DNA of 37,010 nucleotides. Source: a virus. Positions 7,209 through 27,991 of the stretch are shown here, piece by piece; within the stretch, counting starts at the first letter, position 1; each line of letters opens with the position of its first letter. Location of the stretch: positions 1 through 37,010 of the IMG/VR virus record IMGVR_UViG_3300042868_004050; one strand, given 5' to 3'. The notes below the pieces were generated by a model, which ran no database searches, was not told the origin of the DNA, and worked only from the letters and a program-made list of their open reading frames with translations. The translations under genes were made by a program, and so were the position numbers.

Positions 7209-7703
7209 ATGTTAGATATTCTTAGCGGTGGTATTTTAGGCTCTGTTTTTGGCGGCTTGTTTCGCATGGCCCCTGAGGTGCTGAAGTTCTTTGACAAGAA
7301 GAACGAGCGGCTGCACGAACTTAATATGTTTGCCCGTCAGTGCGAACTAGAAACCCTGCGCGGTCAGCAGAAGTTGGCTGAGATTGGGGCACAACGAGAG
7401 GCGGCTGTAGATGTAGGGGTCATGGATGCGTTTCAGTCTGCAATAGAACAACAAGCCACAATGGTTAAAGCCGTTGGTGGTTGGGCGGCTAGTTTGTCTG
7501 CATCTGTTCGTCCTGTTGTTACATACTGGATTCTTTTGGTCTGGAGTTTGGCGCATTTTTGGTATGCGTGGACTGGCTACCGAACTGGCCTCGATCCAAC
7601 AGAAGTGTTTAAACTTTTTATGTCTCCTGACTTCTCGGCACTCTTGGCTGGAACAATTAACTATTGGTTCCTCGATAGAACTCTAAAGCAGCGCGGGTTA
7701 TGA
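7209..7703 (+). CDS. Holin of the 3TM superfamily
   Basis: The 164-residue protein matches the 3TM holin (GTA-holin-like) pattern. It has a Gly-rich hydrophobic N-terminus (LSGGILGSVFGGLFRM) and a charged helical region with KKNERLHELNM and an internal REAAVDVG. A strongly hydrophobic region follows (SVRPVVTYWILLVWSLAHFWYAW), with a final hydrophobic stretch ending NYWFLDRTLKQRG. Such proteins form inner-membrane lesions that let endolysin reach the cell wall. I chose ATG 7209 because GGAGG sits at 7197-7201, 7 bases upstream; the TTG at 7203 would be too close to it. The gene overlaps the endolysin start by ATGA, the usual holin-endolysin coupling. Confidence 0.85.
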   Translation: MLDILSGGILGSVFGGLFRMAPEVLKFFDKKNERLHELNMFARQCELETLRGQQKLAEIGAQREAAVDVGVMDAFQSAIEQQATMVKAVGGWAASLSASVRPVVTYWILLVWSLAHFWYAWTGYRTGLDPTEVFKLFMSPDFSALLAGTINYWFLDRTLKQRGL

Positions 7704-8143
7704 ACTTAGCACTAGCCGCAGAGATGTGTAAACGGTTTGAGGGCTTTCGCTCCAAGCCGTATCTTTGTCCTGCCAACGTAGCCACGATTGGTTACGGTTC
7801 TACCTACTACGCAGACAAGCGCAAGGTGACTTTAGAAGATACACCAATGAGTCAAGAAGAGGCGCACGCTCTTTTGATGATTGAGTTAGAACATACATAC
7901 TTGCCCGGTGTGTTGCGTAATTGCCCCGGCTTGATTACAGACGTTCGTAAGTGCAACGCCATCGTGGATTTTGCCTACAACTTGGGCACCGGGCGTCTCC
8001 AAACTTCTACATTGAAACGAAAGGTCAACGCCCAAGATTGGGAAGGAGCTAAAGAACAGCTCATGCTATGGACTAGAGGGGGCGGCAAGGTATTGCCCGG
8101 ACTACTTAAACGCCGCACGGCTGAGTGCGCATTGCTGGATTAA
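7700..8143 (+). CDS. Endolysin, GH24 lysozyme (T4/P21-type muramidase)
   Basis: This 147-residue glycoside hydrolase cleaves the MurNAc-GlcNAc bond of peptidoglycan. The N-terminus shows CKRFEGFRSKPYLCPANVATIGYGS. The catalytic triad is E14, C23 and T29, with the E-9-x-6-T spacing of T4 lysozyme (E11, D20, T26), but with Cys in the Asp position as in several phage lysozymes. The C-terminal part has the usual ..VDFAYNLGTGRLQTSTL.. and ..LPGLLKRRTAECAL.. motifs. No signal peptide or SAR segment is present, so export depends on the holin just upstream. Length is normal for the family. Confidence 0.95.
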   Translation: MNLALAAEMCKRFEGFRSKPYLCPANVATIGYGSTYYADKRKVTLEDTPMSQEEAHALLMIELEHTYLPGVLRNCPGLITDVRKCNAIVDFAYNLGTGRLQTSTLKRKVNAQDWEGAKEQLMLWTRGGGKVLPGLLKRRTAECALLD

Positions 8144-8144
8144 T

Positions 8145-9914
8145 ATGACTACCCTAAGACTATCGGGCTTTACCGGAGAAAACCGGGCGATACATCCTAT
8201 CCTCTTGTCCGAGACAAGCGGCGTTACATCGCTAAATCAAAAGCCTGGGCGCGGTGATTTTCGGCCTTGGAAAGCTCCTCTTAACGTGGCAGTCGTGCCT
8301 TCAGGTCGCCAAACAATCTACCGTATGGGGCGCGATGTTGCATCAGATACAAACTATTGGCTAACCTGGACAACTGACGTACACGTTGTTCGTGGACCTA
8401 ATGCAAGCGATTCCGCTGAACAAACCTATTTCTCAGGGAGCGGTACTCCCAAATGGACAGACACAACGCAAGCACTTGCAACGTATCCATATCCAACTGC
8501 GGCTCGTGAATTGGGCATACCCGCACCTAATGCGGCTTGTACATTAGCGCTTATTACGGTCACCCTAGCTGCTGGGTCTTTTACCATAGCAAACGTCTAC
8601 ATAATAGCAACGGTTGGAACAACCGACTTCACCCTAATTGGGGCAACGGCTAATACAGTTGGCTTATCGTTTACAGCTACCGGCGTTGGCTCAGGTACTG
8701 GCACTTGCACCAGTGGTAATTTACTTACCGAGACGCGCTACTACACCTACACCTACGTAACTGATATTGGCGAAGAAAGCGCACCTAACGCTTCGCCAAC
8801 CTCTATCACATGTAAAACTGATGCTACCTTAACGGTATCAAACCTTGCGGCGGTTCCTAACGGTAATTACGGGGTAAACCGCATTCGCATCTATCGCACT
8901 CAGACAGGCGCAGCAGGGGATACCGACTTTTTCTTTCTTCGTGAAATTTCCTCGACGCTAACTTCCACTACCGATGACGGTCGCTCACTCGCTGAAGTGA
9001 TGCCCTCGACCACATGGCTGCAGCCCCCTGCTGATCTGTCTTGGTTGACGGGGCTTTGGAACGGCATGATGGCCGGCATAAGCGGTCGCTCGGTCCGTTT
9101 TTGTGAAGCGTATAAGCCTTACGCTTGGCCCATTGCATATGAGATTCTGCCCACTGAAGTTACGCCCGTGGCGTTGCGTACATTCGGGCAATCGCTTGTT
9201 ATTTTGACCAATGGTTCCCCCATTGTCGTAACGGGAGGCTCGCCTGATGCAATGGATGAGCAGCCAGTCGAGTTCTACCAATCTTGCGTAGCGCCTTTGT
9301 CAGCCGTTGATATGGGCTATGGTGTAGCTTGGGCGTCACCTGATGGGCTAGCGTTTATTGGGCCGGGTGGACCCAAGATGCTGACCGAGGGCGTGATGAC
9401 AAGAGATGATTGGCAAGCAATCAACCCCTCAAGTATTGTCGGTTGTATGTATGAGCGAAGATACCTTGGTTTTTACACAGTCGCAGGTGTACGAAAAGGC
9501 TTCGTGATGGACCCAATGAATCCTGGCGGCTTGTACTTTATGGACTTCGGCGTAGACGCCCTGTACCTTGATAGCTTGCAGGACACGTTGTATGTGCTGG
9601 ATGGCGTCAATGTGCAGAAATGGGATGCCTCAAACACTTTTAAAACTGCAACTTTTAGGGGCAAGTTAAACCAACTGCCCAAACCTATGTGCGACTTTGC
9701 ATGCGCGGAAGTTATAGCTGAAAGCTACCCTGTTACGTTTAGCCTTTATACCGACGGCGCGTTGAAATACACCTGTCAAGTCGCTGATAAAAATCCATTT
9801 AGATTGCCCAGCGGTCGCCACTGTCAGACGGCCCAGATTGAAGTCTCTACAACCGGAGCAGCAATTCAAGGTATTGCGATTGCGCACTCCATGAGAGAGA
9901 TTTCTGGATCATGA
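8145..9914 (+). CDS. Virion tail protein, candidate beta-propeller hub/nozzle-like
   Basis: The 589-residue protein belongs to a family of large phage structural proteins. Its start contains ENRAIHPILLSETSGVTSLNQKPGRGDFRPWKAP, and the rest is beta-rich with repeated short strand patterns (YWLTWTTDVHVVRGP, TRYYTYTYVTDIGEESAPN, GVAWASPDGLAFIGPGGPKML, LYLDSLQDTLYVLDG). The opening resembles tail hub or nozzle proteins such as T7 gp12 in style rather than clear identity. Bases ~8556-8715 encode a Gly/Thr-rich insert (GTTDFTLIGATANTVG...GVGSGTGTC) of a type found as a movable module in many phage virion proteins. Its stop overlaps the next gene by ATGA. Structural role is likely; the exact tail position is uncertain. 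Confidence 0.65.
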   Translation: MTTLRLSGFTGENRAIHPILLSETSGVTSLNQKPGRGDFRPWKAPLNVAVVPSGRQTIYRMGRDVASDTNYWLTWTTDVHVVRGPNASDSAEQTYFSGSGTPKWTDTTQALATYPYPTAARELGIPAPNAACTLALITVTLAAGSFTIANVYIIATVGTTDFTLIGATANTVGLSFTATGVGSGTGTCTSGNLLTETRYYTYTYVTDIGEESAPNASPTSITCKTDATLTVSNLAAVPNGNYGVNRIRIYRTQTGAAGDTDFFFLREISSTLTSTTDDGRSLAEVMPSTTWLQPPADLSWLTGLWNGMMAGISGRSVRFCEAYKPYAWPIAYEILPTEVTPVALRTFGQSLVILTNGSPIVVTGGSPDAMDEQPVEFYQSCVAPLSAVDMGYGVAWASPDGLAFIGPGGPKMLTEGVMTRDDWQAINPSSIVGCMYERRYLGFYTVAGVRKGFVMDPMNPGGLYFMDFGVDALYLDSLQDTLYVLDGVNVQKWDASNTFKTATFRGKLNQLPKPMCDFACAEVIAESYPVTFSLYTDGALKYTCQVADKNPFRLPSGRHCQTAQIEVSTTGAAIQGIAIAHSMREISGS

Positions 9915-13436: not shown

Positions 13437-13886
13437 GTGAACGGGCTGTTTTCTCAGTTGCTAAGAGGTAATGAGAGCGCCGTTGCGCTTTGCCTGCTGG
13501 TGTTTGATTGGGCCAATGACTACGACCACTTAGTTGACGGAGACCTCCCTGAGGCGGATAGGGAAGCTGTGCTGCACCGCGCCATGTGGACGCTGTTGGG
13601 GGGGATGCAAACCAATGATTTTTATAGGCAATATCAGGACGAACTTCTGGTGACTCTGGCAAACGGGGTTTCAACTTGGCGCACATCCACCCTACTGCAG
13701 CGCGGAACTAACCCTAAAGGCCACGAGCTAGCCCATGTAATGCGGTGGGCTCCAGTGGAATTTTTTATACATTGCGCTCGAATTGTTGGCGGAGAAGCTT
13801 GGGTCCAAGAAGTAGCCCCCGGCTTTTGGTTAGCCATGACACAAGATCATTCATTTGAACAGTTTGCACGCGAGTGCGGAGGATAG
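13437..13886 (+). CDS. Conserved phage protein of unknown function, acidic helical
   Basis: The 149-residue product uses a GTG start directly abutting the upstream TAA. The sequence is helical and contains LCLLVFDWANDYDHLVDGDLPEADRE, then RAMWTLLGGMQTNDFYRQYQDEL and MRWAPVEFFIHCARIVGGEAWVQEVAP. This arrangement, with an acidic D..ND.DHL.DGD motif near the N-terminus, occurs in other phages next to internal virion protein genes; the function is not known. The acidic motif could hint at metal binding but no reaction can be named. Confidence 0.66.
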   Translation: MNGLFSQLLRGNESAVALCLLVFDWANDYDHLVDGDLPEADREAVLHRAMWTLLGGMQTNDFYRQYQDELLVTLANGVSTWRTSTLLQRGTNPKGHELAHVMRWAPVEFFIHCARIVGGEAWVQEVAPGFWLAMTQDHSFEQFARECGG

Positions 13887-13890
13887 AACT

Positions 13891-14709
13891 ATGGGATGGG
13901 GACCATCAGCACCGGATATGTCAGGAGCCAATGAAGCTGCCCGAGCAGGCATAGCTATGAATAAAGAGCAATTCGATTACTGGAAAACAGTAACTAACCC
14001 TCGCGCTTTGGCTCAAGAAGATGAAATGATTGCGCAAGGTAAAGATCAGCTAAAACGGTCGAACGAAGCTCAAGAATTTCAGATGGGGTTGACCAAGAAA
14101 TACGACCAGCGATTTTGGGACAAGCAAGCCCCCATGCAAGATAGCCTGACCAAAGAAGCCAACGATTACAACGAAGCGGCTAACGTAGACAAGATGTCCG
14201 GTCAGGCCGGAGCAGATGTCGAAACGGCGTTTGGCGCGGCGCAGGCTCAGCAGCAGCGCGGCCTTAACAGGTCGGGGGTAAACCCTAGGTCGGGTCAAGC
14301 GTTGGCAATGGGCAACCAAACTGCAATTGCTATGGCGTCTGCCCGAGCAAACGCCGAAAACAAAACCCGCGATGCCGCCAAATTGATGGGGCACAGTTTG
14401 AAACTCGACGCTAATGCCGCGATGGCCGGCCTATCTGGATTTAGTTCAGCCGCGAACTCGGCAGCACAAAACTGGAGCGGCAACGGTATGGCTGCAGGAC
14501 GTATGGGCATGGACGGTATCTATGCCGCCAGCAGCATGGCGAATTCTTCGACGGGCGGAGCCGCCGCCGGTATGTACGGCGCGAGCAGTCAGCTTCGCTC
14601 GAACGCAATCGAGTCTGCTAAGTCTCCAGGCTTCGATGCAGCGATGGGATTAGTAGCAGGCGGTATGAAGATGTACGGCTCAATGTACTCTCCCGTCAAA
14701 CCGGGATAA
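13891..14709 (+). CDS. Probable internal virion (ejection) protein, gp14-like
   Basis: The 272-residue protein starts at ATG 13891 with GGAGG at 13878-13882; the longer frame from 13855 overlaps the previous gene and lacks such a site. The N-terminal half is charged and helical (ANEAARAGIAMNKEQFDYWKTV). The middle is Ala/Gln-rich (AAQAQQQRGLNRSGVNPRSGQALAMGNQ). The C-terminal half is Gly/Ala/Met/Ser-rich, with a small hydrophobic end (FDAAMGLVAGGMKMYG). This composition, size and position before two larger proteins match the small internal core protein of podovirus-like ejection systems. It is inferred to enter the host envelope with the DNA. Confidence 0.68.
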   Translation: MGWGPSAPDMSGANEAARAGIAMNKEQFDYWKTVTNPRALAQEDEMIAQGKDQLKRSNEAQEFQMGLTKKYDQRFWDKQAPMQDSLTKEANDYNEAANVDKMSGQAGADVETAFGAAQAQQQRGLNRSGVNPRSGQALAMGNQTAIAMASARANAENKTRDAAKLMGHSLKLDANAAMAGLSGFSSAANSAAQNWSGNGMAAGRMGMDGIYAASSMANSSTGGAAAGMYGASSQLRSNAIESAKSPGFDAAMGLVAGGMKMYGSMYSPVKPG

Positions 14710-14718
14710 GGAACTAAC

Positions 14719-16281
14719 ATGGCTACTGATTATTTCAAGATGATGCAAAGCGTCCTTGGCTCTTATGCCGATGGACGCGAAGAGGCTCGCCTACGTCAGA
14801 GGCAAGTTGATGCTGATACCAGAGCGGTCACTGTGTTTGACCAGTCGCAGGAGGCTTACAAACGCGACAAAACCCAGCGCGACATGGTAGACGCTGCGCA
14901 CACTAAGCTTAGCGGCCTCTCGGCTAACGGTGTAGAAATTCCTGAGTCTGCGGGCTTGGATCAACCCCCCGTGCAACCTCGAGCAGATGGTTTAGCTGTT
15001 AACCTGGCTCAAGACGTGGCGCCAACTAGAGTCCCAGCGCAGTCTCAAGCTAATGGTTTAACTCTTTCTCCAGCTCAAGACGATGCGCTAACTCGAGCTA
15101 ACCCTGTGCCTACAAAAAGGTATCGCCCTGCGACTGACTTAGAAATTAACCGGGGGCAGTACAACGTTGCGGTAGCTAGTCGAGATATGAATGCTCAGCA
15201 AAACCTGCAAACCCAGCACCGCGAACTCCGAATAAGAGATGTTCACAACACAGTTGGCAAACTTACCCCCGAGGAGTTGGTTAAAGAAGCTGCTGGTGTA
15301 AATGTGACCGGCGACATTCCAATGATTTATACGGGCAAGGACAAGAACGGGTACACCTTTATGACGACCGATAGTGCAGGGGCACCGGATAAAAAATTCA
15401 CTGCGTCACCAGATCAACTTCGTCAGTTGGTACTGGCAAAACAGTTGGGGGCTGGCGGGTTCGGAAAAGAATCAATGGACGTGGCTGGCAAAGCTCACGG
15501 TGCTGTTTCTGAGCTCATCAAAGCGATGAATGCTCAGACGAGTGCACTTGCAACAAATGCTAATGATGTTCTGCATAAAGGCAACGCAGATAAAAATGAC
15601 ACCACAAGAGCCGGAGCGGCCGTTACCAGCGCTAATGCAGCAGCCACAACTGCTCAGGCGCACGCTTCCTATTGGAACACACAGGGGAAAGTTGCTAATC
15701 TCACGCTCGAAGGCCAAAAGGCCGTTAACGAAGCGAATAACGCTTTCAACGAAACCATGTCCAAGCTTACTCCCGCTCAGCAAGATGGCGTTGAGGGAAG
15801 AAATGCGAAGGCTATCTTTAATGCTGCAACTGCTAAGTTTGGTCAAGCGCGCTTAGATACTCGACCCCCTACGGGTAAGGCAGGTATTGCACCAGAGGAT
15901 GTGCCCGCGTACCGAAAAGATATTCTTGCACTTGGTCTTAGACCGCCGGAAAAAGTAGGTATGTTAGGCGGCAAGGATGACAGACAAGGCGTAGTTTGGG
16001 ATGCGCAAAAGAACAACATAGACCAAGTTTATGGCGTGAATAAATTGAACGCTGCGCCTGGAGCTAAGACTCGGCTCGATCAGGCGATGAGTGAGCTACC
16101 TGTTCAAGGTGGCCGCAACAATACTGCTCCCGATGTTCCGGGCAGGCCTTTCTACAACACTGACACGAAGCAGCTTCGGGCCTTGGCCACTAAGCCAAGA
16201 GGCGTCAGTAGCGATGAGGCCAACCAAGCTCAAGCGGAGCTGGATTCCAGAGTGGGCGAACAAAGAATCAAAGGGTTCTAA
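14719..16281 (+). CDS. Probable internal virion protein, second ejection component
   Basis: The 520-residue protein follows 9 bases after the previous gene, with AAGGA at 14708-14712 upstream. It is Ala/Gln/Asn-rich and mostly helical (TRAGAAVTSANAAATTAQAHASYWNTQGKVANL). It contains an imperfect duplication of 23 residues near its N-terminus (DGLAVNLAQDVAPTR and NGLTLSPAQDDALTR). No enzymatic motif is visible. By order (small protein, this one, then a giant one) it corresponds to the middle ejection protein of T7-like systems, with which I see no direct sequence similarity. The stop is 2 bases before the giant gene. Confidence 0.66.
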   Translation: MATDYFKMMQSVLGSYADGREEARLRQRQVDADTRAVTVFDQSQEAYKRDKTQRDMVDAAHTKLSGLSANGVEIPESAGLDQPPVQPRADGLAVNLAQDVAPTRVPAQSQANGLTLSPAQDDALTRANPVPTKRYRPATDLEINRGQYNVAVASRDMNAQQNLQTQHRELRIRDVHNTVGKLTPEELVKEAAGVNVTGDIPMIYTGKDKNGYTFMTTDSAGAPDKKFTASPDQLRQLVLAKQLGAGGFGKESMDVAGKAHGAVSELIKAMNAQTSALATNANDVLHKGNADKNDTTRAGAAVTSANAAATTAQAHASYWNTQGKVANLTLEGQKAVNEANNAFNETMSKLTPAQQDGVEGRNAKAIFNAATAKFGQARLDTRPPTGKAGIAPEDVPAYRKDILALGLRPPEKVGMLGGKDDRQGVVWDAQKNNIDQVYGVNKLNAAPGAKTRLDQAMSELPVQGGRNNTAPDVPGRPFYNTDTKQLRALATKPRGVSSDEANQAQAELDSRVGEQRIKGF

Positions 16282-16283
16282 AG

Positions 16284-19200
16284 ATGGCTACGCTTAAACA
16301 GCTTCGTGAGTTTTTTCCGATGGCTGCGTCCGATGAGGACGCGATCAGCCGTGCATCGCAACAGTTTGGGATAGACCCCTCTGAGATTGCTAACGAAGTT
16401 GGGTATGACGTTGGTGGGGGTAGGCTGACTTCCAAGCGAATTGGAGGCTCGTTAGATAGCTATCAATCTGGCCTCTACGAGACCGGAGCTGCTGCGGCTG
16501 GAGCCGTGGGGCTTGGCGGCGCTAAAGCCTATATGGACCGCAAAGCGTCTGATAACAGACTTCAAGCGGAAGTTGCAGGATCGCGGGCTAGGGCACTTGG
16601 CGGAATCGACTCTTACAAAGACGTTGAAGGAGTTGGCACTGGCTTGAACTACTTGGGCGGATTAGCTGCTCAATCAGTACCTTACGTTGGTGAGGCTGCG
16701 GTTGGAGGTGTACTTACTCGAAGCGCGCTTACGGGTTTACGTGCGACTGTGGCAGCGGGGCGTGTTGCTGGTGCAACTGAAGAGGCAGTGACTGCGGCTA
16801 GAACGGCGCAGAAGGCCATTGATTTTCGCAGTGTTGCCGGTGCTACCGCAGCCAGCTACCCAAGCTCAATGGGAGACATTCTCGGCAATCAGCGCGAGCA
16901 AATTGAAATTAGTGGGGGCGAGATGCGCCCCGGCATGGCTGCACTGGGTGCTATTCCTTACTCACTGCTAAATGCAGGAACCGGCGTTGGCGGGCTAGCG
17001 GCTAGGGGCAATCTTGCTCGCAGCGGGGTACGTGCCCTTGATGATATGGACGGTTTTAAAGGCGGCTTAGCCCGCACGGGCGCTGCTGTTACTAGGGTGG
17101 CGGGCGCGGAAGGTGCTGGAGAGCTCGGTCAAGAGTTTGTGAACCAGGGGGCTGGCCGTATGGCGGTGGACCCTTACCAGAAGTTTTGGGACGATTCCGT
17201 TAACCCAGACGGCTCACCAACCAACCGCAATTCAACAGATCGCTACGCAGAGTCATTTGTCGGCGGCGCCGTTATGGGCGGAGCGACGGGAGTTATCGGC
17301 GGTCATCGCCGAAGCGCTGGCTACAAAGCTCCTGCGGAGCCTGTTTCAGATACCCAAGAGACTAATTTGTTAGCGCCAAATGACGGCACTGGGCCACCCA
17401 CAGATTTGATTGGACCAGGTATTCCTCGTCAGGGCATTCAAACAAACATGTCGGGGTTTAACCAGGAGTTTCCTGAGAACCAATTTAGCCCGATAAACCG
17501 AGGTGGTGTTCCTGATGCTAACGTTGCTTCCAACATGGCCGAGCTACAAAACTTGCGGAGCCAAAAGAGCGGAATCGTTTCCTATTTACAGTCGCTTCAA
17601 GATAGTGGAAACCAAGATGCCTACTACCGCTTCTTGGACCAAGCGTACCCAGCTATTGACAAGATTGATGAAGCTATGGCTCCGCTGGAGCGACTCGAGG
17701 CAGCACAAAGAGACAGTGGGGGTCAACAAGGCTTTGACTTTAACAATGCTCAGCAAAATCAAAACGTTGGCGATTCTCTCATTCCTGCTACTGGAGTAGG
17801 CCCACAAGACCTAATTAACCAGCAGCTAGGCCTTACTCGCCCAGACGTTGCAGGCGCCACACAGAAGGAAAAAAACAAGTACCCAAGCTTGTTTGAAGAC
17901 GCGGCCTCTGAGCAAACTGGTCAGGACATCTCTGACAGCGCTACAGACCAAACGGAGTTCAATGACACTGCGCTTCAGGACGTACAGCGACAAGCTGGAA
18001 TCCTGCAGCAGCAACGAGTAGCTCAACAAAAACTTGAGGGCATGCAGAAAGAAGTGCAGGCAGAAACTGCACGAGTGGCGGCGTCAAACGCTCGGGGTAC
18101 CGGCTTTGGTATCAAGGGCAAAGCTGCTCTCGATGTGTTCGATCAATTGGAGCAGTTCTTCGAACAGGGCAGAGCCACTGAGGCAGAGTTCAAAGAGAAC
18201 GCATCCTTGCTAGCTCAACGCAAAATGGGTTCCGTTAAGAAGTGGATGGACGCCATCACAGGCACAAAAGCCGCTGCTAATTCACCCGTAGCTGTCCCCA
18301 CCATCGCTGCACCCGCAGCACTAACCACGCAAGAAAATGGCACTCAAACCAATCAAACCGTCCAAACAGAAACGCAACCAAACACCCAAGCAGGAGCGCA
18401 AGCCTTGCCTACAAAAGGCGTCCGAACATTAGCCCGAGGAACCCTCGCAGCCTCACAAGCTGTTGATCCCGTTGCTACTGATGCTGTTGTTGCTACCGCT
18501 GACCCAATCGCTGACGAAGCTCCTGTAGCTCCAACTGAGTTTGTCAATGGAGTTCCGGTGCAGAAGCTATCTTATGTTGAGCCCGCTACAGGCTCTAAAG
18601 CATTAGATGAAGACGGCCTACCTTCTGTTGCGGCGATCCATGAAAAAGTTAAAGGGTTGTTACTGGCAAATGTATTGGGGCAGCACAGTCAAACCTATGA
18701 GCAATTTAAACTCAATCTTGCTCAAGTTACAGGCATGCAAGTTGAGACTGACCCCGAGACCGGAGTGGCTACGGTTATTCAGGCTAACAACCCTGTGCCT
18801 ATGGCTCAAGTAGCTGCTAGTAACGGTACCTCGCGCCAGGCTATTTCGCAGAGCCTCAACGGCCGTGGAATTACCGACAAACTAATTGAGAAATTAGTCT
18901 TCAACGCCAACCCCACGAATTCAAGCTTTGACCCCGATGCCAACGAACAAGACGCTCCCACGGGAGACGACACCATTGACCCCACTGACAACAGAGCAGA
19001 AAAAGAATATGGGTCAGACGCTGTAGTTGAAGACGCTGCAGTTAACGGTGGTATGCGCGTGGAGAATTCTGCAGCGAAGGCAATGGGCGAGGGTCTTGTC
19101 ACCAACGACGTAACTTATTCGCCCCAAGAAACAAAGCTGATTGGCAACTCAGCCAAAGCAATTAAGGAAGCGGAGTTCAGCCAAGGATCAATTGATGCGG

Positions 19201-22200
19201 CTATCGAGGGTAAAAGCGATAGGATGAAGAATGCAATTCTGGCCACAGCGGCGAAGCTCCAAATCTCTAGCAGCAGGGCCGTAGGGACAAAGGTTAAAAC
19301 AACCGCTGATATTGCATTTGAAGGCAAGCGCTCTGAAGCGGCTAAAGCATCTTACATGCGTGAGCTTGCGCTTTTTTGGAATGGCCCTGATGGGGCAAAT
19401 ACTGCAAGCGACTGGAATGAGCGCACTGCGGGAAACTTTCCTGACTTCGATCAACTTACTACTGCCCAGCAGTTAAACTGGACGGCGGGTCTGTATGAGC
19501 TAACCAAGGAACAAACAAATGACCAAGAAGCCATTGACGCCCTCTTCACCCAACTCTCCAATGGAGTCCCCCGTAGTACGCAAGCCGACCGGAGCCTCGC
19601 AGATAACGCCAGAGGGATGGGCACAAATAGCGAACCTGCTGGAACGAGCGAAGGAGCTGGGGCTTCGGGACGACCAGCCCAGCCAGCCGCCCAAGTAACG
19701 GTCAAGAAAACTCGTAAGGTTGCGCAACCGGCTATTGCGGACGACTCACGCACCATCGACGGAACTGATCTAGTCCGCGAAGTCTCAGAGCAAGAGATGC
19801 TTCTGTTGGAGTCGGGCGTCGGCAGCTTGCCTGATGCTCAGCGAGGTGCTCTCGAGAAGGCATATGGAGAAAAAGCCGGTACTGAGGCGTTCTCCGCCAG
19901 GCTGCGTGAAGATGTCACCAACTACATCAACAAAGGCATTGAGTCTGTCTCTGCTGCCATTCGCCACATTATCAAGAGCGTTGCCGAAGGCGTACTTGCA
20001 GTTGGTATTGTTTTTAACCCAACAGCGTTCAGCAACAAGTTAGACCTTCAGCTAGCTCAAATCGTTAAGACTCAGGTAACTAGCCAGGTTAAAACTGAGG
20101 TCCCTGCTAACGCCAAGGCAAAGATGTCTACGCAAGCTCAAGGTGTCTACGAGTCGATGGCTCCCACTGCCGCCAAGCTAGGTAAGGGCTTCATCATTGC
20201 AGACAAGCCGATGGGCATGGTCCACATCTTTAAAGCTGATGGCTCAGTGCTTGTTCAAGACGCAGCTTTGTACGGTAAAGATAAAGGAGATACCTTAGAC
20301 AGTAAATCTTCTCTGCAAGGCGGTCCTAAGACTACTCCGGCTGGCTCATTCCACCTGGAAGCAATGGACGATAAAGACTATACCGGCGGTAAAGTTCTAT
20401 CCCTCGTCGAGAGCCGAGACTCTACAGGTTACGTTGCGGTTCACTCCGTGTACTTGGGTGACCCCAAAGAGCAGCGAGTTGAGCGCTTTAAATCAGCAAA
20501 CCCCGATGATCGCCGAGTAAGCTTTGGCTGCATCAACACGACTGAGGATACGTTTGTAAATAATGTGCTTCCAGTTATTAATGAATTCAACGGCGGCATG
20601 ATATTTGTGATGCCCGAAGCTCAGGAAAACACTGCGGCCATGTTCCCCGCCCAGACAGTAACTACTGAGGTTGAGCAAGCTGAAGGGGGCGTTAAAACTG
20701 CGGATGCTCGTTTAGGAGCGCTTGGCAAGAACGATGAAGTCGTTGCTGAGAAAGTAAGACTGTCTCAAGGCAACAAAACCCAGAGCAGCACCGTAGCCCG
20801 AGTAACTTCCGAAGTTAAAGGCCTGATGCCCATCAGCTCTCGTTTGGTTGTAGTCGAATCATTTGCTGACTTGCCTTCTCATGTGCAGCAGAGCGTAGCT
20901 CAACAGTCTGCCGACGGCAAAACTGTTCAGGGTTTTATCCTTGGCGGCAAAGCCTACTTGATTGCAAAAAACATTGCCCCCGGTAAAGCCCGTGCCGTTT
21001 TTATGCACGAAGTCGGCTCTCACCTTGGGCTTGATAACCTTTTGTCCCCAGAGCAACATGCCGCATTGGCGGCTAAAGTGTCTGAGTGGGCTGCACGCAA
21101 CGACGGCTCTCGGGAATCTAATCTAGCCCAAGCCGCATTGGCAAGGGTTGAGCAGGCGGGGGTAAGCGAAGAAGATCGTAACTCTGAGCTGATCGCTTAC
21201 TTCATTGAAGAAGCTGTGAACGCAGGTATTGATCCTACAGCTAACAGCTACAAGTCCGACTTGGATCGATGGTTCCGCACTGTGTGGGCTGCTTTCAAAT
21301 CAGCAATGCACCGCCTCGGTGTAAACCCAGATAAGTTGACCGCTCAAGATATGGTGGACATGGCTTACGGCGCTGCAAAGTTGGAGATGAATGGTGCTTG
21401 GCATGGTACTGCAGCGGAGTTTAAAAAGTTTAACCACAAGTATATGAACAGCGGAGAAGGCGCCCAGGCTCACGGCTGGGGTTCGTACTTTGCTCAGGCT
21501 CCGGGAATTGCCAAAGGGTACTTTGAGCGGGACGTAAAGAACAAGACAGGCAAAGGCTCGATTCCTCCACAAGGTAACTTGATGCGTATCGATTTCAATG
21601 TTGCAGAGGACGAATGGCTTGACCTAAACGAGAAGTTAAATGAAAGAAATTTGCAGCTCCTCGAAACCAACTTGCCCAGCACGTTAAAAGATGATTTGGT
21701 GGAGGCAGTTAACGAAGAACTAAACGAGATGGACGGGCGGGACCTGTATCGCGGCTTAGTATTCTTGGAAAAACTAGATGGTTCGGTATCTGATTTATTT
21801 AAAGACACTGAGGCGTACAACGCCAAGCTAGCTAACAAAGACGCAGATCAAATAGTATCCACTTACCTAGACTCTATCGGAATCAAGGGCAGCAGGTTTT
21901 TGGACGCAAACAGTCGCACAGATCGCAGAGGTAAGTTGTTTATTGATGGGCAGCGAGTCAAAGCTTTGCCCTCCATGGAGTTTGGGGAGCGAGACGGCAT
22001 TGAGCGGCTCATGGTTAATGATGGTAATTTAACCGAGGCTCTCAAAGAAGCAAAGAACGAGGCGCTAGGCACACAAGAAGAAATCAAGTACCTCGAGTCA
22101 CTGCAGGGCAAAGAAATAAGCTTAGAAGGCGCTAGTCAAACTCAAAATCTTGTGGTTTTTAATGACGAAAATATCCAGCGCGTAGCTTCCCTTAAAGGGG

Positions 22201-24902
22201 CGGACAAAGGCAAAGTGCAGTTCTCCGTTGCCGCTAGCCCCAGTGCTGCTGCAGCAGTCAAATCTATGGCTCGCTCTGTAGGCGGTCGCTCTGCTGAGTC
22301 GCTGGCTATCAGCGGCATGCACTTCGCACGCAAAGCTGCTCTCTCGATGGAGTCGCTCCACAGTTTAGTGGATCGTTTTGAAGGCCGTATCCCTGCTATT
22401 CGCCCTTGGTACAACGCAATGATTGCTACATCGAGCCGACGCCGTGAGCTGGAAGCGTCAGCCGAAAAAGTGTCTGCAATGGCCACGAAGCTAAAGGACT
22501 CTACGGCAGTAAACCAGTTTATATCTGAGTCAACTGTCGACCAGAAATGGGGTTATGACCCCGGCTTCAAGAACCGTAAGAAGCCAGTGGTATTGGATGC
22601 CGCAATGAAGCAGAAGTTCAATCGCCTCACAGCGCCTGAACAAGAAGTAGTTAAAGCAGTCTTTGCCCACGGCGAAGAAATGTCTGAGGCTAAGAACAAG
22701 ATTCTTAAGACTCTTGGTATTGATGACATCTTCACCAGCAAGGGCAAACTTGAAGGACCATACGCTCCACTCAAGCGCTTCGGTAATTACATTTCAATCC
22801 TAAAGTCCAAAGAGTTGGTGGCGGCACTAGATGAAAAAACTGGCAACGCTGCGCTAGCAGACAAGCTCAAGTCTAGTCCAGACAACTACGTGGTGACTTC
22901 CTTTGACACGATGGGCGAAGCCGAGCTCCACGCTAAAGATAATGCTGCTGACTTCCTCGGCGGTACGGCTGATGCTTTCGAGAAGTCTGTGCGCGTTGAT
23001 GCTGATCGAGTCATGAATCCTGCTCTGTTAGCAAAGGTAATGGCTGCTGTGAACGCGAGTGACATACCTACAGAGGCGCAAGCGGCCGTGCACTCACTCG
23101 TACAGGACATGTACTTTCAGTCCCTCGATGAGCAAAACGCTCGTACCTCGGGGCTTAAGCGTAAGAATCGTGCGGGCTATGAAGCTGACATGATTCGTTC
23201 GTTCTTGTCTAACGCCCGCGCAGAAGCAGGGTTCTTGGCAAACATGGAGCACGGCGGTGACATAAACCGACAGTTCTACGAAATGCAGAAGGGGGCTAAA
23301 GATGCGCAAGGTAAACGGGTCCACCAGACCGAGTTCAACACACTTGCAGCTCACTACGCTGACAGCTTGAAGTACACCAAGACTCCTTGGCAAGACGCAC
23401 TAATGGCGGGTACTGCTGCTTGGCAGCTTTCAACGAGCCCTGCTTATCACTTGGTTAACGCGATGCAAGGCATCATGGTTACTGTGCCTCGTTTGGCTGC
23501 TGACTTCAACGATTACACCGGAGCTTGGAGTGCTCTTCTTGCTGGCTACGGCACGCTGAAGCAAACTGGTATGTGGGGGAATATCAACTTATCCAGAGTC
23601 AGCAACCCAGGTCTTCGTGCTGCGCTTCAGAAAGCTGCCGATATGGGCGTACTGGATGTCGGCTTGGATGAGGACTTAACTCGCCTCGAGGCGACTCGAA
23701 CTGGTGTGGCGGCAATCGACCGTTCAACAGGTCTCGCTCAGACAGCGCTTCACAAGTTGCGTCAAGTATCACGCGCAGTGGAGATGGCTAACCGTGTGTC
23801 CTCCGCTACAGCGGGCTACAACATGTCTATTGCCAGGGGAGATGGCGAGGCAGCAGCTCAAGCTTACGCAGTGCGCCTTCTTCAGGACACGCAGGGTGAC
23901 TTCAGCCGCACCGATGCACCGTTGATACTTAAGAAGTTGCCTAAAGTTGTGACCCAGTACAAAAAGTACCAGTTCATGATGGCAGCGCTTTACGTTAAGG
24001 CGTTCCAACAAGCGTTCAACAGCACAGACCCTGAAGTTAAGGCCATTGGTCGCCGGATGCTAGCTTACAAGTTGTTCCATACAAGCATGGCTGCGGGCGC
24101 TCTTGGCATGCCGCTGGCTAACGTGGTTGGTATGGTGTTCGCAGCCCTTGGCGGCGATGACGGTGAGCCACCTGATCTTGAGCGCACGTTGAGGGAGTTG
24201 ATTGGCGACGAGGACATGGCAAACATTCTTCTGCACGGCCCCTTAAGTTATCTTGGTGTGGACCTTTCCGGCAAGCTCGGCGACGATAAGATTTTCTCCA
24301 TTTTGCCTTACGGTACTTGGGACTTCTCTAGCGCAGCAGGACTTATAAAGACTGCGGCTTCACTTGCTGGACCCGGAGTTTCTCAGCTTGGGAAAATGGC
24401 CGACGGCGTGGGCCTCATCGGTAAGGGCGAGCTAGGTAAAGGCACTGAGAAGCTGATGCCAAGCGGTATTGCAAACGCTATGAAAGCTTTCCGTATTGCT
24501 AACGAAGGGTTCACGCTGAAGAACGGAGATGTGATGTTCCGGCCTGAGGACATTAACGGTATGTCCCTTGCATTGGATGCGTTGGGCGTGCCCTCTGCGG
24601 CTTTGAAACGAATGGAGTGGATACGTAGCCAGCAGTACGAGATCAGCCGCTTCTACACTGACCAGTCGAGCCAGATCAAGCAAGAGTATGCGGCGGCAAC
24701 TAAAGACGGAGACTACGAAGTTCAGGCTCAGTTGAGAGCTGATTGGATGGCGCTTCAAGGTGGCAAGGCCAAAATGCGTCAATACTTCGGTGATTCCCAA
24801 GACGCGCTTAAAGCACAGCCGCTAACTACGCTACTGAAGTACCCCTCAACTAAGGCAGAGAGAGAAGCCAAGCTGCAAAGAGCAGCTCAGGTCTCTAACT
24901 AA
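16284..24902 (+). CDS. Giant polyvalent internal virion protein (L,D-transpeptidase, zincin-like, ART-like, PLxRFG)
   Basis: At 2872 residues this is the largest gene in the window. The N-terminus (LREFFPMAASDEDAI, then GLYETGAAAAGAVGLGG) has a Gly/Ala hydrophobic segment at ~65-85. A helix-turn-helix-like stretch lies near 840-872. An L,D-transpeptidase (YkuD-like) domain spans ~1300-1445, with H1387 and the SFGCIN motif (catalytic C1416); it could act on peptidoglycan cross-links. A zincin-like motif HEVGSH is at 1575-1580. An ADP-ribosyltransferase-like domain of polyvalent proteins starts at WHGT (1706-1709), continues GEGAQAHGWGSYFA and ends near NLVVFND (~1955). The APLKRFG motif at 2161-2167 defines the PLxRFG family. 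A membrane-prone segment lies at ~2600-2622. Such proteins are packaged and injected with the DNA to breach the wall and modify host targets. Confidence 0.9.
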   Translation: MATLKQLREFFPMAASDEDAISRASQQFGIDPSEIANEVGYDVGGGRLTSKRIGGSLDSYQSGLYETGAAAAGAVGLGGAKAYMDRKASDNRLQAEVAGSRARALGGIDSYKDVEGVGTGLNYLGGLAAQSVPYVGEAAVGGVLTRSALTGLRATVAAGRVAGATEEAVTAARTAQKAIDFRSVAGATAASYPSSMGDILGNQREQIEISGGEMRPGMAALGAIPYSLLNAGTGVGGLAARGNLARSGVRALDDMDGFKGGLARTGAAVTRVAGAEGAGELGQEFVNQGAGRMAVDPYQKFWDDSVNPDGSPTNRNSTDRYAESFVGGAVMGGATGVIGGHRRSAGYKAPAEPVSDTQETNLLAPNDGTGPPTDLIGPGIPRQGIQTNMSGFNQEFPENQFSPINRGGVPDANVASNMAELQNLRSQKSGIVSYLQSLQDSGNQDAYYRFLDQAYPAIDKIDEAMAPLERLEAAQRDSGGQQGFDFNNAQQNQNVGDSLIPATGVGPQDLINQQLGLTRPDVAGATQKEKNKYPSLFEDAASEQTGQDISDSATDQTEFNDTALQDVQRQAGILQQQRVAQQKLEGMQKEVQAETARVAASNARGTGFGIKGKAALDVFDQLEQFFEQGRATEAEFKENASLLAQRKMGSVKKWMDAITGTKAAANSPVAVPTIAAPAALTTQENGTQTNQTVQTETQPNTQAGAQALPTKGVRTLARGTLAASQAVDPVATDAVVATADPIADEAPVAPTEFVNGVPVQKLSYVEPATGSKALDEDGLPSVAAIHEKVKGLLLANVLGQHSQTYEQFKLNLAQVTGMQVETDPETGVATVIQANNPVPMAQVAASNGTSRQAISQSLNGRGITDKLIEKLVFNANPTNSSFDPDANEQDAPTGDDTIDPTDNRAEKEYGSDAVVEDAAVNGGMRVENSAAKAMGEGLVTNDVTYSPQETKLIGNSAKAIKEAEFSQGSIDAAIEGKSDRMKNAILATAAKLQISSSRAVGTKVKTTADIAFEGKRSEAAKASYMRELALFWNGPDGANTASDWNERTAGNFPDFDQLTTAQQLNWTAGLYELTKEQTNDQEAIDALFTQLSNGVPRSTQADRSLADNARGMGTNSEPAGTSEGAGASGRPAQPAAQVTVKKTRKVAQPAIADDSRTIDGTDLVREVSEQEMLLLESGVGSLPDAQRGALEKAYGEKAGTEAFSARLREDVTNYINKGIESVSAAIRHIIKSVAEGVLAVGIVFNPTAFSNKLDLQLAQIVKTQVTSQVKTEVPANAKAKMSTQAQGVYESMAPTAAKLGKGFIIADKPMGMVHIFKADGSVLVQDAALYGKDKGDTLDSKSSLQGGPKTTPAGSFHLEAMDDKDYTGGKVLSLVESRDSTGYVAVHSVYLGDPKEQRVERFKSANPDDRRVSFGCINTTEDTFVNNVLPVINEFNGGMIFVMPEAQENTAAMFPAQTVTTEVEQAEGGVKTADARLGALGKNDEVVAEKVRLSQGNKTQSSTVARVTSEVKGLMPISSRLVVVESFADLPSHVQQSVAQQSADGKTVQGFILGGKAYLIAKNIAPGKARAVFMHEVGSHLGLDNLLSPEQHAALAAKVSEWAARNDGSRESNLAQAALARVEQAGVSEEDRNSELIAYFIEEAVNAGIDPTANSYKSDLDRWFRTVWAAFKSAMHRLGVNPDKLTAQDMVDMAYGAAKLEMNGAWHGTAAEFKKFNHKYMNSGEGAQAHGWGSYFAQAPGIAKGYFERDVKNKTGKGSIPPQGNLMRIDFNVAEDEWLDLNEKLNERNLQLLETNLPSTLKDDLVEAVNEELNEMDGRDLYRGLVFLEKLDGSVSDLFKDTEAYNAKLANKDADQIVSTYLDSIGIKGSRFLDANSRTDRRGKLFIDGQRVKALPSMEFGERDGIERLMVNDGNLTEALKEAKNEALGTQEEIKYLESLQGKEISLEGASQTQNLVVFNDENIQRVASLKGADKGKVQFSVAASPSAAAAVKSMARSVGGRSAESLAISGMHFARKAALSMESLHSLVDRFEGRIPAIRPWYNAMIATSSRRRELEASAEKVSAMATKLKDSTAVNQFISESTVDQKWGYDPGFKNRKKPVVLDAAMKQKFNRLTAPEQEVVKAVFAHGEEMSEAKNKILKTLGIDDIFTSKGKLEGPYAPLKRFGNYISILKSKELVAALDEKTGNAALADKLKSSPDNYVVTSFDTMGEAELHAKDNAADFLGGTADAFEKSVRVDADRVMNPALLAKVMAAVNASDIPTEAQAAVHSLVQDMYFQSLDEQNARTSGLKRKNRAGYEADMIRSFLSNARAEAGFLANMEHGGDINRQFYEMQKGAKDAQGKRVHQTEFNTLAAHYADSLKYTKTPWQDALMAGTAAWQLSTSPAYHLVNAMQGIMVTVPRLAADFNDYTGAWSALLAGYGTLKQTGMWGNINLSRVSNPGLRAALQKAADMGVLDVGLDEDLTRLEATRTGVAAIDRSTGLAQTALHKLRQVSRAVEMANRVSSATAGYNMSIARGDGEAAAQAYAVRLLQDTQGDFSRTDAPLILKKLPKVVTQYKKYQFMMAALYVKAFQQAFNSTDPEVKAIGRRMLAYKLFHTSMAAGALGMPLANVVGMVFAALGGDDGEPPDLERTLRELIGDEDMANILLHGPLSYLGVDLSGKLGDDKIFSILPYGTWDFSSAAGLIKTAASLAGPGVSQLGKMADGVGLIGKGELGKGTEKLMPSGIANAMKAFRIANEGFTLKNGDVMFRPEDINGMSLALDALGVPSAALKRMEWIRSQQYEISRFYTDQSSQIKQEYAAATKDGDYEVQAQLRADWMALQGGKAKMRQYFGDSQDALKAQPLTTLLKYPSTKAEREAKLQRAAQVSN

Positions 24903-27900
24903 GCAGCGGCCACCTCGGAGCTAGCATCAGGGGCAGGGGTCTCGATGGTAGCTCTGGCCATGGAGATGACCTTTCCATCTGTGTCGGGAAGTACCCTGTC
25001 CCAATCCGCGCCAATGGAGCGAAGCATGCGGCGCGTATCTACCTTCATGCAACGGCTGCGGGCATCAGCGTTGTCCTTCATCCCCTTGTGGAAGTTGTAG
25101 TACTCAGTGAAGTGGTCTTTGGTATCTCCCGTAGCGTTCTTGAAAGGCACCAAGATTTCGCTTCGGCGGCACTCGGTAATGATTTCGCGTTCGCTGACCT
25201 TGTTCTCCGCACACCAGTCGCGAAAGGCACCCGTTGATACGTAGGTGAACCCCGAACTGATAACGTGGCGGGCGATAGGCTTGTCTGGGGCGCGTAGGTT
25301 AAGCGCCATATCGAAGTGACCCCGTGAGTGGCCTTGGTGTGTCTCCGCCTCAGTCACCAACGTGCGGTTAGCGCAAGAGGCAAGCATCATCGTCATCAAC
25401 TCAGGCCCACTGGTGGGGGTGTGGGTATCCTTAATGAACTCGTTACCCGCGTCAAACGCCAGCTTGAATTCACGAATCAGGGTATCGGTATCAAACATGG
25501 CCAAGCCCATGCGCTCACAGAACGCCTGAAGGCACAGCATGGCTCCCAAAACTCGGTACTGGTAGCGAGCCCCTTGCTCAGCGTCTCCGAGCAACTGACG
25601 GGCTTTAATTACGTTGTGCATGACCAGCTCGTTCATCTTGGCCTGACCTTGCTTACAAATCCAGTACTCGAGCACCGCACCAAAGGCTCCTGCGCAATCC
25701 CGATCGATCGCTGCTGAACCAATGTCGTAGTTGTCCAGATTTCCACCTTGCTTAGAGTCGAACTTTTTAATGTTATCGACGTTCAGTTCCATCAAACGAT
25801 TTTGAATGGCAGTGCTATCTGTACCTACTGCGGCAATCATGTCTCGCTGTGAGCGGTTAGTGGTAATCATGTTGATGAGTGCCCATGGAGCCTTAACCAC
25901 AAGGTCTCCGTCCTTGGTGGCACGTTCGCGGGATGCCCCATTGCCAACCATGTTGACCATCGAGCTGATCGAGGTTTCCTTGGTGTCCCCCATCTCATCC
26001 ATGCTCATTGGCATCGTGCCCCATAAGGACAGCTTGGAGCTGCGGGCAATGTCTGTTGAACCGCTAGAGTTCGAGTCTTTTACTAGAACTGATTTGTTGC
26101 CGTAGGCCATCATGATTGTCTGAACTACAGCCGTTTTGCCGCGTCCAGTTTCACGACTGAACAGGGATACGCTAAACCCGTTTGCGGGCAGATCAATACC
26201 TCGCGTGTATGCGCCAGTAATAAAGGCCATGAGTGGGCTGCAAAGGCCGAGCATGATGGCTAGTTGGTACTTCTCTAGGCCGGGAGCATCGTAGTAGTTC
26301 TTAACAAAGTCTCTGTACTGGCGAGAGGCAGGGACCAACGTAGTGGCCCAGACTTCCTTCCCCCAGGTTCCATTGCTCGTAGGCGGTAAGGGCAGGGGGA
26401 ACCGGTTAGCAACTGACTCTAGTGACTTGCCCAGCATCGCTATTTGAATTTCGCCACTGCTAGTGATGTAGTACTTTCCGTGGGCGCACACCATGTCGCC
26501 GTTTTCCAAAATTCGCAGACCCATGCGGTCATTTATCTTGTCGCGGTGATTTGAAGTTTTGATGCCGTGCAACATGGAAAGAATAAATTGGCTCATAGCG
26601 GCGGGTGCTCTTTTGTTTGAGGTTAGGTGAATGGCTTTTCCTGCAAGGTATCTAAGCAGGTCAGACCGGCTAGCGATAAGAGATTGGTCGAGCACATACG
26701 TTTTCACGCGCCCGTTTGACAGCAAGTGCAGTGTTACCAGTGCGTTGTCTTCCGTAGCAAGAGCCTCTGCCCACTGACCAAGCCAAAAGATGTCGTTAGT
26801 AAAAGGAACCAGAATCTCGCTTTGAACAGTGTCTCCGTCCGCGCTCTCGGTCTCCACGATCATCTTGTGTACGAGGGTGTTGATGAGCCCCTTTTGAACT
26901 GAGAATTTAGCGGGGATCATGCCGTCCCATGGGTCTCCAGTGGGCGCGGGTGGCCTAGCGGGAGCAGGCTGTTGATCTGGCGGCAGCGCCTCCACTTGCT
27001 CAGGGTTCAGATAACCCAGCAAGATCGGAGACTTCACCTTGCCTCGGTACTCGCAGCCCATGCAGGCGTTGGTGTGCTTACCCAGCTCTGCGCATGTTGT
27101 AGGTCCCGTGGCCCACGCGTTGAACTTGCGCTCGGTGCTCACCTCGTCGTAGTCAGGGTGGCCTGTGCTTAGCATCTGCGCGGCCTCTACGCCCTCCACA
27201 GTGAACTTCACTACGCCAAGCATGGCACGCCAGAACGGCTCTTGCACATCGCCTTTAACAGCATTGATTTCTTGCATCGCACCGCAGTGCTGAAGAATCT
27301 TGTGGATGGACTTGGGTGGCCCCTCAACTGTCAGGCCTAGATCAGCGTTAACGTCCATGTTGAACACGCGCTCAGCCGCTTCGGGAACTGCACCAAGAGC
27401 TAGTGCTAGAGCGGCAGGCTCATAGCGTGATCCGGTGTCGGCAACCAAGCTAACTAGGTTCCCATTTTTGTGGGTAGTCCCCAGTGGACGCAGAACCCTT
27501 GCAGTGTCGGACGTGACCGTGGGGTCGATCAGTAAGCCGCTAGCCCGAGCTACTCTGCCCAGTGCCGTAGCAAGAGGCTTCCAGTCCTCTGGTGTCAGGT
27601 CTTCGGTCAGGCAGTAGTAGATGTGCCAGCCCTCGCCGCTAGATACAAGGAAGCTAGGTTTGATACCACTGTCCTTGATGAACACCGTGATCGCCTTAAG
27701 CGCCAACTCACGAGTTTCATAGACATGCTGCGGGTCGCGGCTGAACTTATCAGCCCCAGCATCTACGTCTAAACGCAAAGAACACAACGCTAACACGTTA
27801 GCTTGTGTGCGATTTTCAGGCGATTTGAATGACTCGACAGCGAAGTAAACGCCGTCTTCAGTGCCGAATTCTAGGGTTAACTCGGCAAGTTCTTCTGTGG

Positions 27901-27991
27901 ACTCAGCCCAGACGTGGGTTCGCGCCGGAAGTTTTAGAAGGCAATAGTGCCCTGATTGCGGTAAAACCGCTTGATAAAAATTGTGCAGCAT
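24899..27991 (-). CDS. Primase-helicase: AEP-type primase domain fused to a AAA+/SF3-like helicase
   Basis: The 1030-residue protein combines two replication activities. The N-terminal ~200 residues look like an archaeo-eukaryotic primase: LRLDVDAG (D75, D77 metal ligands), SSGEGWHIYY (H123) and a DPTVTSDTARVLRPLGTTHKNG motif. After a linker with a Cys cluster (CAELGKHTNACMGC) and a Pro-rich stretch comes the helicase. It has a degenerate Walker A RETGRGKTA (K619), Walker B MSMDEMG (D665, E666) and a sensor-like ALINMITTNRS. It would unwind DNA and make primers for the family A polymerase. The stop overlaps the stop of the giant gene by 4 bp from the opposite strand. The bases at 27790-27801 contain an exact operator-like palindrome. 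Confidence 0.85.
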   Translation of the reverse strand: MLHNFYQAVLPQSGHYCLLKLPARTHVWAESTEELAELTLEFGTEDGVYFAVESFKSPENRTQANVLALCSLRLDVDAGADKFSRDPQHVYETRELALKAITVFIKDSGIKPSFLVSSGEGWHIYYCLTEDLTPEDWKPLATALGRVARASGLLIDPTVTSDTARVLRPLGTTHKNGNLVSLVADTGSRYEPAALALALGAVPEAAERVFNMDVNADLGLTVEGPPKSIHKILQHCGAMQEINAVKGDVQEPFWRAMLGVVKFTVEGVEAAQMLSTGHPDYDEVSTERKFNAWATGPTTCAELGKHTNACMGCEYRGKVKSPILLGYLNPEQVEALPPDQQPAPARPPAPTGDPWDGMIPAKFSVQKGLINTLVHKMIVETESADGDTVQSEILVPFTNDIFWLGQWAEALATEDNALVTLHLLSNGRVKTYVLDQSLIASRSDLLRYLAGKAIHLTSNKRAPAAMSQFILSMLHGIKTSNHRDKINDRMGLRILENGDMVCAHGKYYITSSGEIQIAMLGKSLESVANRFPLPLPPTSNGTWGKEVWATTLVPASRQYRDFVKNYYDAPGLEKYQLAIMLGLCSPLMAFITGAYTRGIDLPANGFSVSLFSRETGRGKTAVVQTIMMAYGNKSVLVKDSNSSGSTDIARSSKLSLWGTMPMSMDEMGDTKETSISSMVNMVGNGASRERATKDGDLVVKAPWALINMITTNRSQRDMIAAVGTDSTAIQNRLMELNVDNIKKFDSKQGGNLDNYDIGSAAIDRDCAGAFGAVLEYWICKQGQAKMNELVMHNVIKARQLLGDAEQGARYQYRVLGAMLCLQAFCERMGLAMFDTDTLIREFKLAFDAGNEFIKDTHTPTSGPELMTMMLASCANRTLVTEAETHQGHSRGHFDMALNLRAPDKPIARHVISSGFTYVSTGAFRDWCAENKVSEREIITECRRSEILVPFKNATGDTKDHFTEYYNFHKGMKDNADARSRCMKVDTRRMLRSIGADWDRVLPDTDGKVISMARATIETPAPDASSEVAAA
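27790..27801. promoter_or_regulatory. Operator-like palindrome inside the primase gene
   Basis: CTAACACGTTAG, the reverse complement of the 12-mer at 5618 and 13161, lies within codons for A-N-V-L-A near residue 65 of the primase. It has no promoter elements that I can see. It may be a real internal operator, a decoy, or coincidence of coding sequence. Confidence 0.4.

Follow-up and report, generated by a model that had tools for sequence, protein, structure and literature searches.

A YkuD-like L,D-transpeptidase domain beside a zincin-like domain in a 2872-residue phage polyvalent protein

A viral protein of 2872 residues joins a putative YkuD-like L,D-transpeptidase (LDT) domain, a zincin-like metallopeptidase domain, an ADP-ribosyltransferase (ART)-like domain and a PLxRFG/tail-700 C-terminus in one chain, with conserved catalytic residues, a conserved adjacency of LDT and zincin, and virion-type genes as neighbours. 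Polyvalent proteins, their zincins and their ARTs are already known; no earlier description of the LDT part appears to exist. The reading favoured here, at a probability of about 0.5, is that the protein is ejected at infection, with its LDT editing the host wall, the zincin then cleaving the chain and the ART subsequently acting in the cytoplasm.

The locus and the architecture of the protein

The window, that is, the whole stretch analysed, is the complete virus record IMGVR_UViG_3300042868_004050 (37 kb; 37,010 nt). Its gene content includes tail, internal-virion, lysozyme, SNF2-helicase, integrase and DNA polymerase genes. The features relevant here are as follows:

7700..8143, + strand, endolysin (phage lysozyme; PF00959, 5.9e-33), a gene separate from the polyvalent protein
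8145..9914, + strand, 589-aa internal virion protein (phrog_511, 2.5e-123)
13855..14709, + strand, 284-aa virion structural protein (phrog_8003, 1.6e-19)
14719..16281, + strand, 520-aa protein, immediate upstream neighbour (in contigs L009 and L003 a homologue directly precedes the polyvalent gene)
16284..24902, + strand, polyvalent protein gene, 2872 aa, one ATG-initiated ORF without interruption
16284..17333, + strand, N-terminal region, residues 1-350, Gly/Ala-rich, common to LDT and non-LDT relatives
18780..18899, + strand, possible helix-turn-helix, approximately residues 833-872 (weak: MarR_2 0.055, RecX_HTH2 0.063)
19803..20657, + strand, mobile module of hydrophobic segment and LDT, residues 1174-1458 (shared block)
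19965..20015, + strand, short hydrophobic, signal-anchor-like segment HIIKSVAEGVLAVGIVF, residues 1228-1244 (from hydropathy)
20175..20621, + strand, YkuD-like LDT domain, residues 1298-1446 (from Pfam matches of relatives and annotated bacterial relatives), with the motif SFGCIN
20442-20444 and 20529-20531, + strand, conserved LDT catalytic codons of His1387 and of Cys1416 (the Cys of SFGCIN)
20763..21389, + strand, zincin-like metallopeptidase domain of the HExxxH clade, residues 1494-1702 (HEVGSH at 1575-1580, presumed third ligand Glu1635)
21390..22193, + strand, ART-PolyVal-like domain, residues 1703-1970 (WHGT at 1706-1709; His1707, Tyr1735, Asn1955; PF18760, 0.003)
22755..24740, + strand, PLxRFG/tail-700 C-terminal domain, residues 2158-2819 (PLKRFG at 2162-2167; NCBIfam NF032893)

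The original prediction had read this ORF as a polyvalent phage protein bearing an LDT, a zincin-like motif, an ART-like domain and a PLxRFG region on one chain. All four features lie at the predicted residues of an intact ORF, and the polyvalent assignment is borne out by the domain set, the C-terminus and the gene neighbourhood: more than one unrelated catalytic domain (LDT-like, zincin-like, ART-like, tail-700) occurs in the single chain, and the gene is located among virion and late genes (phrog_511, phrog_8003, adjoining tail genes). The PLxRFG region is confirmed by its motif and by the match of tail-700 to the C-terminal ~660 residues (240.8 bits, cut-off 100, 3e-71), and residues 2154-2846 also match the DarB-like antirestriction family phrog_10089 (3.4e-41). 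The N-terminal region gave no match in a Pfam scan; it is 41% identical to that of contig L014 and, over residues 193-356, 42% identical to L003a. Helix-turn-helix-like stretches in the relatives were called by eye. Searched against PDB sequences, neither the whole protein nor the LDT profiles gave more than spurious matches to NHL repeats.

The tail-700 C-terminus is common to phages of Erwinia, Klebsiella, Serratia and Pseudomonas, and the named phages possessing it include SopranoGao, Pavtok and Parlo, among others. Some of these PLxRFG-domain chains are giant, with methylase, helicase and lytic transglycosylase parts. One relative (L003) shares the C-terminus, is without the LDT and possesses MuF_C where the window protein has its ART. 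The polyvalent gene of L003 (9467-21580; also L002:702-5144) consists of two ORFs of 944 and 1480 aa, approximately 4.8 kb apart, with tail-like and other ORFs between them; the break falls near where the LDT sits in the window protein, and may reflect either an insertion or an original split.

Two genes lie directly upstream of the polyvalent gene, one of them virion-type, and homologues are likewise upstream in several relatives (for the 284-aa protein, in L003, L005, L014 and L015). This layout is that of the polyvalent proteins in the main text of Iyer et al. 2017 (PMC5512222). It bears on whether the protein is injected at all. Its gene is among late genes and an endolysin gene lies in the same gene run, as would suit late action in the producing cell, such as altering the wall ahead of lysis or to counter superinfection. 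This alternative is considered unlikely, as virion-type genes are directly adjacent, in relatives too, and the polyvalent proteins studied to date, in the main-text account of Iyer et al. (PMC5512222), are virion components (P1 DdrB, processed and packaged; N4 vRNAP, packaged whole).

Other genes of the window were also noted. A 1030-aa protein with a DUF927/primase-helicase-like part (24899-27991, - strand) is convergent with the polyvalent gene and overlaps its stop codon; L003 has a convergent gene of similar length, and another DUF927 gene occurs on the E. coli plasmid pSTEC648_2. Adjacent genes at 3432-4876 (239 and 245 aa) both belong to phrog_7084, one also matching DUF6065, and are probably a tandem duplication. 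A 2OG-Fe(II) oxygenase (2821-3426; PF13640, 4.2e-16) adjoins the tail-fibre genes.

The YkuD-like domain and its spread as a module

In Pfam, the LDT segment of the window gave no match to YkuD (PF03734) even at E 10. Among LDT-family relatives, 11/26 match YkuD (best 8.1e-8), and the homologue on pSTEC648_2 scores 27.2 bits, above the cut-off of 23.4. A profile built from 14 polyvalent sequences retrieved secreted-type bacterial proteins at ~1e-24, two of them annotated as L,D-transpeptidase. His1387, Arg1398, Gly1415, Cys1416 and Asn1418 are invariant in 26 sequences, secreted bacterial homologues among them. The domain is best placed as a divergent branch of the YkuD family, a call that rests on homology and not on the window's own score; the predicted LDT is upheld by the YkuD matches of relatives and by the intact Cys and His, but not by a Pfam score of its own. 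Most bacterial relatives start with signal-peptide-like sequences, so the family probably acts outside the cytoplasm.

Using Foldseek, the two top hits of the LDT model among ~350,000 PDB chains were both LDTs (5bmq and 8da2), at non-significant E values of 0.025 and 0.18 and from a weak model (pLDDT 61). Alignment of the LDT profile with seven classical YkuD domains by hhalign covered the SxGC motif only (probability 4%), with a score above reversed and shuffled controls and far short of significance. In a tree, the 18 polyvalent copies (that of the window, 16 more from viral rows and one from a metagenome-assembled genome (MAG) contig) form a cluster with support of 98/100 that excludes both the pSTEC648_2 copy and the bacterial enzymes.

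Like YkuD LDTs, the domain possesses a catalytic Cys and His, a TPxG stretch, an SxGCIN motif and an export-type segment before it. It differs in being fused within a phage protein and in its motif: the His of SHGC is replaced by Phe in the window (SFGC) and by Tyr in most relatives, contig L066 retaining SHGC, and His and Cys are 29 residues apart, against 18-21 in the textbook motif. The strict pattern HX14-17[S/T]HGC is therefore absent, and the domain is termed YkuD-like and not a canonical LDT. Phe or Tyr at this position in nearly all members would suit an injected effector that damages or edits the wall, namely a Tlde1-like LD-carboxypeptidase or D-amino-acid exchanger, which would weaken or disguise the wall with no sealing. 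Tlde1 is itself an LDT fold brought in by a phage-tail-like machine, its H129A variant (Tlde1a) retains D-amino-acid exchange with most crosslinking lost (PMC9638812), and carboxypeptidases and endopeptidases occur among YkuD proteins. Against this, none of the Tlde1 families in Pfam matches the window protein, its bacterial relatives are annotated as plain LDTs, SHGC persists in L066, and crosslinking need not be lost without the second His; such an effector is judged a less probable explanation than the favoured reading.

In 13 other viral contigs the Cys1416 module shows 40-64% identity, with His1387 and Cys1416 invariant. The nearest relatives match the window over the ~285-residue module at 52-59% identity (58.6% over 285 aa with L006/L014), while other regions of those proteins differ. 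Hydrophobic segment and LDT together were found in 17 other viral contigs (two pairs near-identical) and in one Geobacteraceae MAG contig. By these comparisons, segment and domain evidently move as one unit between otherwise differing proteins. Among 198 genomes of the Geobacteraceae phylum, the module was identified solely in the one where it had been found before; PF18760 gave no match in the same genomes, and none in controls either, which makes that negative uninformative.

The hydrophobic segment has a mean hydropathy of 1.66 over 17 residues, short and under the usual transmembrane threshold; a counterpart directly precedes the LDT in polyvalent relatives and in pSTEC648_2. Such a segment adjoining the LDT, with a protease after it, could also fit covalent anchoring of the ejected protein or entry channel to peptidoglycan, as for Lpp, with later release by the zincin. 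Several bacteria do use LDTs to link proteins to peptidoglycan, OutB being the example described in PMC12274547, yet anchoring as the main role is judged improbable.

The more distant module on pSTEC648_2 (CP061838; L059 and L146) belongs to a phage-like E. coli plasmid of 60 kb. Probably a phage-plasmid, it encodes a ParB partition protein, a holin, a lysozyme, a homologue of the 589-aa internal virion protein, a DUF927 protein and a 2318-aa LDT polyvalent protein annotated as hypothetical. No near match was found for the LDT gene in RefSeq E. coli genomes, or for the surrounding 18 kb in the phage collection. A gene annotated as GH104 lies directly upstream of the LDT gene on this plasmid. 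This recalls TtsA, which requires LD-crosslinked peptidoglycan (PMC6996933) and is licensed by YcbB-edited peptidoglycan, and a phage LDT might similarly edit the wall to make it cleavable by a partner muramidase. This was judged the least probable of the alternatives: the GH104 annotation is unsupported by a Pfam scan, and the window has no adjacent muramidase except the endolysin.

The zincin-like and ART-like domains

All 23 aligned sequences retain H1575, E1576, H1580 and E1635. The HExxxH motif with its downstream Glu fits the HEXXXH zincin set in the main text of Iyer et al. (PMC5512222), and the predicted zincin-like motif holds, with all three presumed Zn ligands present. Helices of the zincin segment were confidently predicted, with no significant PDB match. 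The combined zincin and ART model likewise gave no meaningful match in the PDB by Foldseek; among viral models its hits were mainly other polyvalent or ART-PolyVal proteins. In 11/14 proteins the LDT is followed, no more than 200 aa further on, by an HExxH or HExxxH motif, against 0.09 expected in shuffled sequence, and this recurrence despite differing motif type suggests functional coupling of LDT and zincin. No HExxH motif was seen in the pSTEC648_2 LDT protein sequence. The spacing statistics, together with the residue invariance in 26 sequences, rule out a chance motif match for the LDT and zincin features.

The ART region scores 17.4-18.7 bits against Pfam ART-PolyVal (PF18760), below the cut-off of 31.2. 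A search with this domain found 321 viral relatives, and 21/28 relatives match ART-PolyVal at E up to 0.01 (best 1.7e-14). Neither His1707 nor Tyr1735 varies; the third catalytic residue is Asn1955, and most relatives have Asn there too. PARP-type ARTs have Glu at the third catalytic position, and mono-ADP-ribosyltransferases without an acid there exist. In the main text of Iyer et al. (PMC5512222), polyvalent ARTs have an H-Y-D active site. The toxin-like ART that had been proposed is supported by WHGT, by the retained His and Tyr and by the family matches of relatives, but not by its own score or its third residue; activity is plausible, and is not assured because Asn1955 stands at that position. 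The combination of LDT, zincin and ART recurs in approximately six other contigs (L013, L066, L067, L071 and L084 among them), so the idea that it is unique to this phage was rejected. In contig L012 an LDT occurs with an ART-PolyVal domain above cut-off.

Possible action during infection and comparison with known systems

In the favoured reading, the polyvalent protein would enter the virion together with the products of the two genes immediately upstream and be ejected on infection; packaging, injection, topology, proteolysis and the activities are inferred here from sequence. The hydrophobic segment and YkuD-like domain would act from the periplasmic side, where His1387 would activate Cys1416 to attack stem peptides in the host wall near the site of entry; transfer of the acyl group, with either an amine or water as acceptor, would edit the wall locally. 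The LDT would thereby occupy the slot held by a lytic transglycosylase in related phage proteins (the SopranoGao PLxRFG protein has an N-terminal SLT domain, 1.5e-14; Pavtok gp27 is annotated as a lytic transglycosylase). The adjoining zincin would cut the chain and so separate the envelope-acting half from the cytoplasm-acting half, freeing the ART-like and C-terminal parts to work in the cytoplasm, the former by modifying a host target.

Sealing, as first suggested, would be one possible outcome of LDT chemistry; trimming or exchange, or anchoring, would fit too. By our own estimate the product divides between crosslinks (~45%), carboxypeptidase action or amino-acid exchange (40%) and protein anchoring (15%). 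Trimming or exchange is put about level with sealing because the SHGC His is missing and Tlde1a H129A keeps exchange; the LDT annotation of bacterial relatives is a mild argument for crosslinking. The fuller version, in which an injected crosslinker recloses or reinforces the entry hole and the built-in protease then releases an ADP-ribosylating part to the cytoplasm, is doubtful.

Searches for YkuD or transpeptidase in phage virions, phage genomes or polyvalent proteins found no paper in the open-licence literature, and a jumbo-phage survey mentions neither term. The main text of Iyer et al. 2017 (PMC5512222) likewise mentions neither; the wall-targeting polyvalent domains listed there are lysozyme, SpoIID-like, DD-peptidase and zeta-toxin. 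The window protein resembles the polyvalent proteins of that text in being a very large multidomain chain by virion genes, with an HEXXXH zincin, an ART-PolyVal-like domain and a PLxRFG/LPD-type C-terminus, and differs from them in its YkuD-like LDT. With the PLxRFG/DarB-like proteins of Lastavirus and Pavtokvirus (SopranoGao, Pavtok) it shares a homologous C-terminus (~25% identity) and a giant chain with a wall enzyme, whereas the enzyme in those proteins is an SLT lytic transglycosylase and their other domains are a methylase and a helicase.

Stand-alone LDT-like proteins with the same H...GC[IV]N core are encoded by Delepquintavirus and large Xanthomonas phages (L007:3025-3273, L008:1926-2270; annotated as hypothetical); unlike the window protein, these are unfused and much shorter, 82-114 aa as annotated. 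The 82-aa call in phage Summit may begin too late, the open frame being 166 aa. LDTGo-type enzymes are 1,3-transpeptidases (PMC10864386). The T6SS effector Tlde1a (PMC9638812) is also an LDT-fold enzyme and is delivered into another cell's envelope, but belongs to another sequence family, without a profile match. Known phage entry enzymes cut the wall; if the favoured reading is true, the conserved, mobile pairing of LDT and zincin in injected-type proteins from many phages would show that an acyltransferase able to edit the wall is delivered by phages as well. Such a pair, if injected, would allow what becomes of the entry wound to be tested in concrete terms, and a relative encoded by an E. 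coli phage-like plasmid places the question near a standard host.
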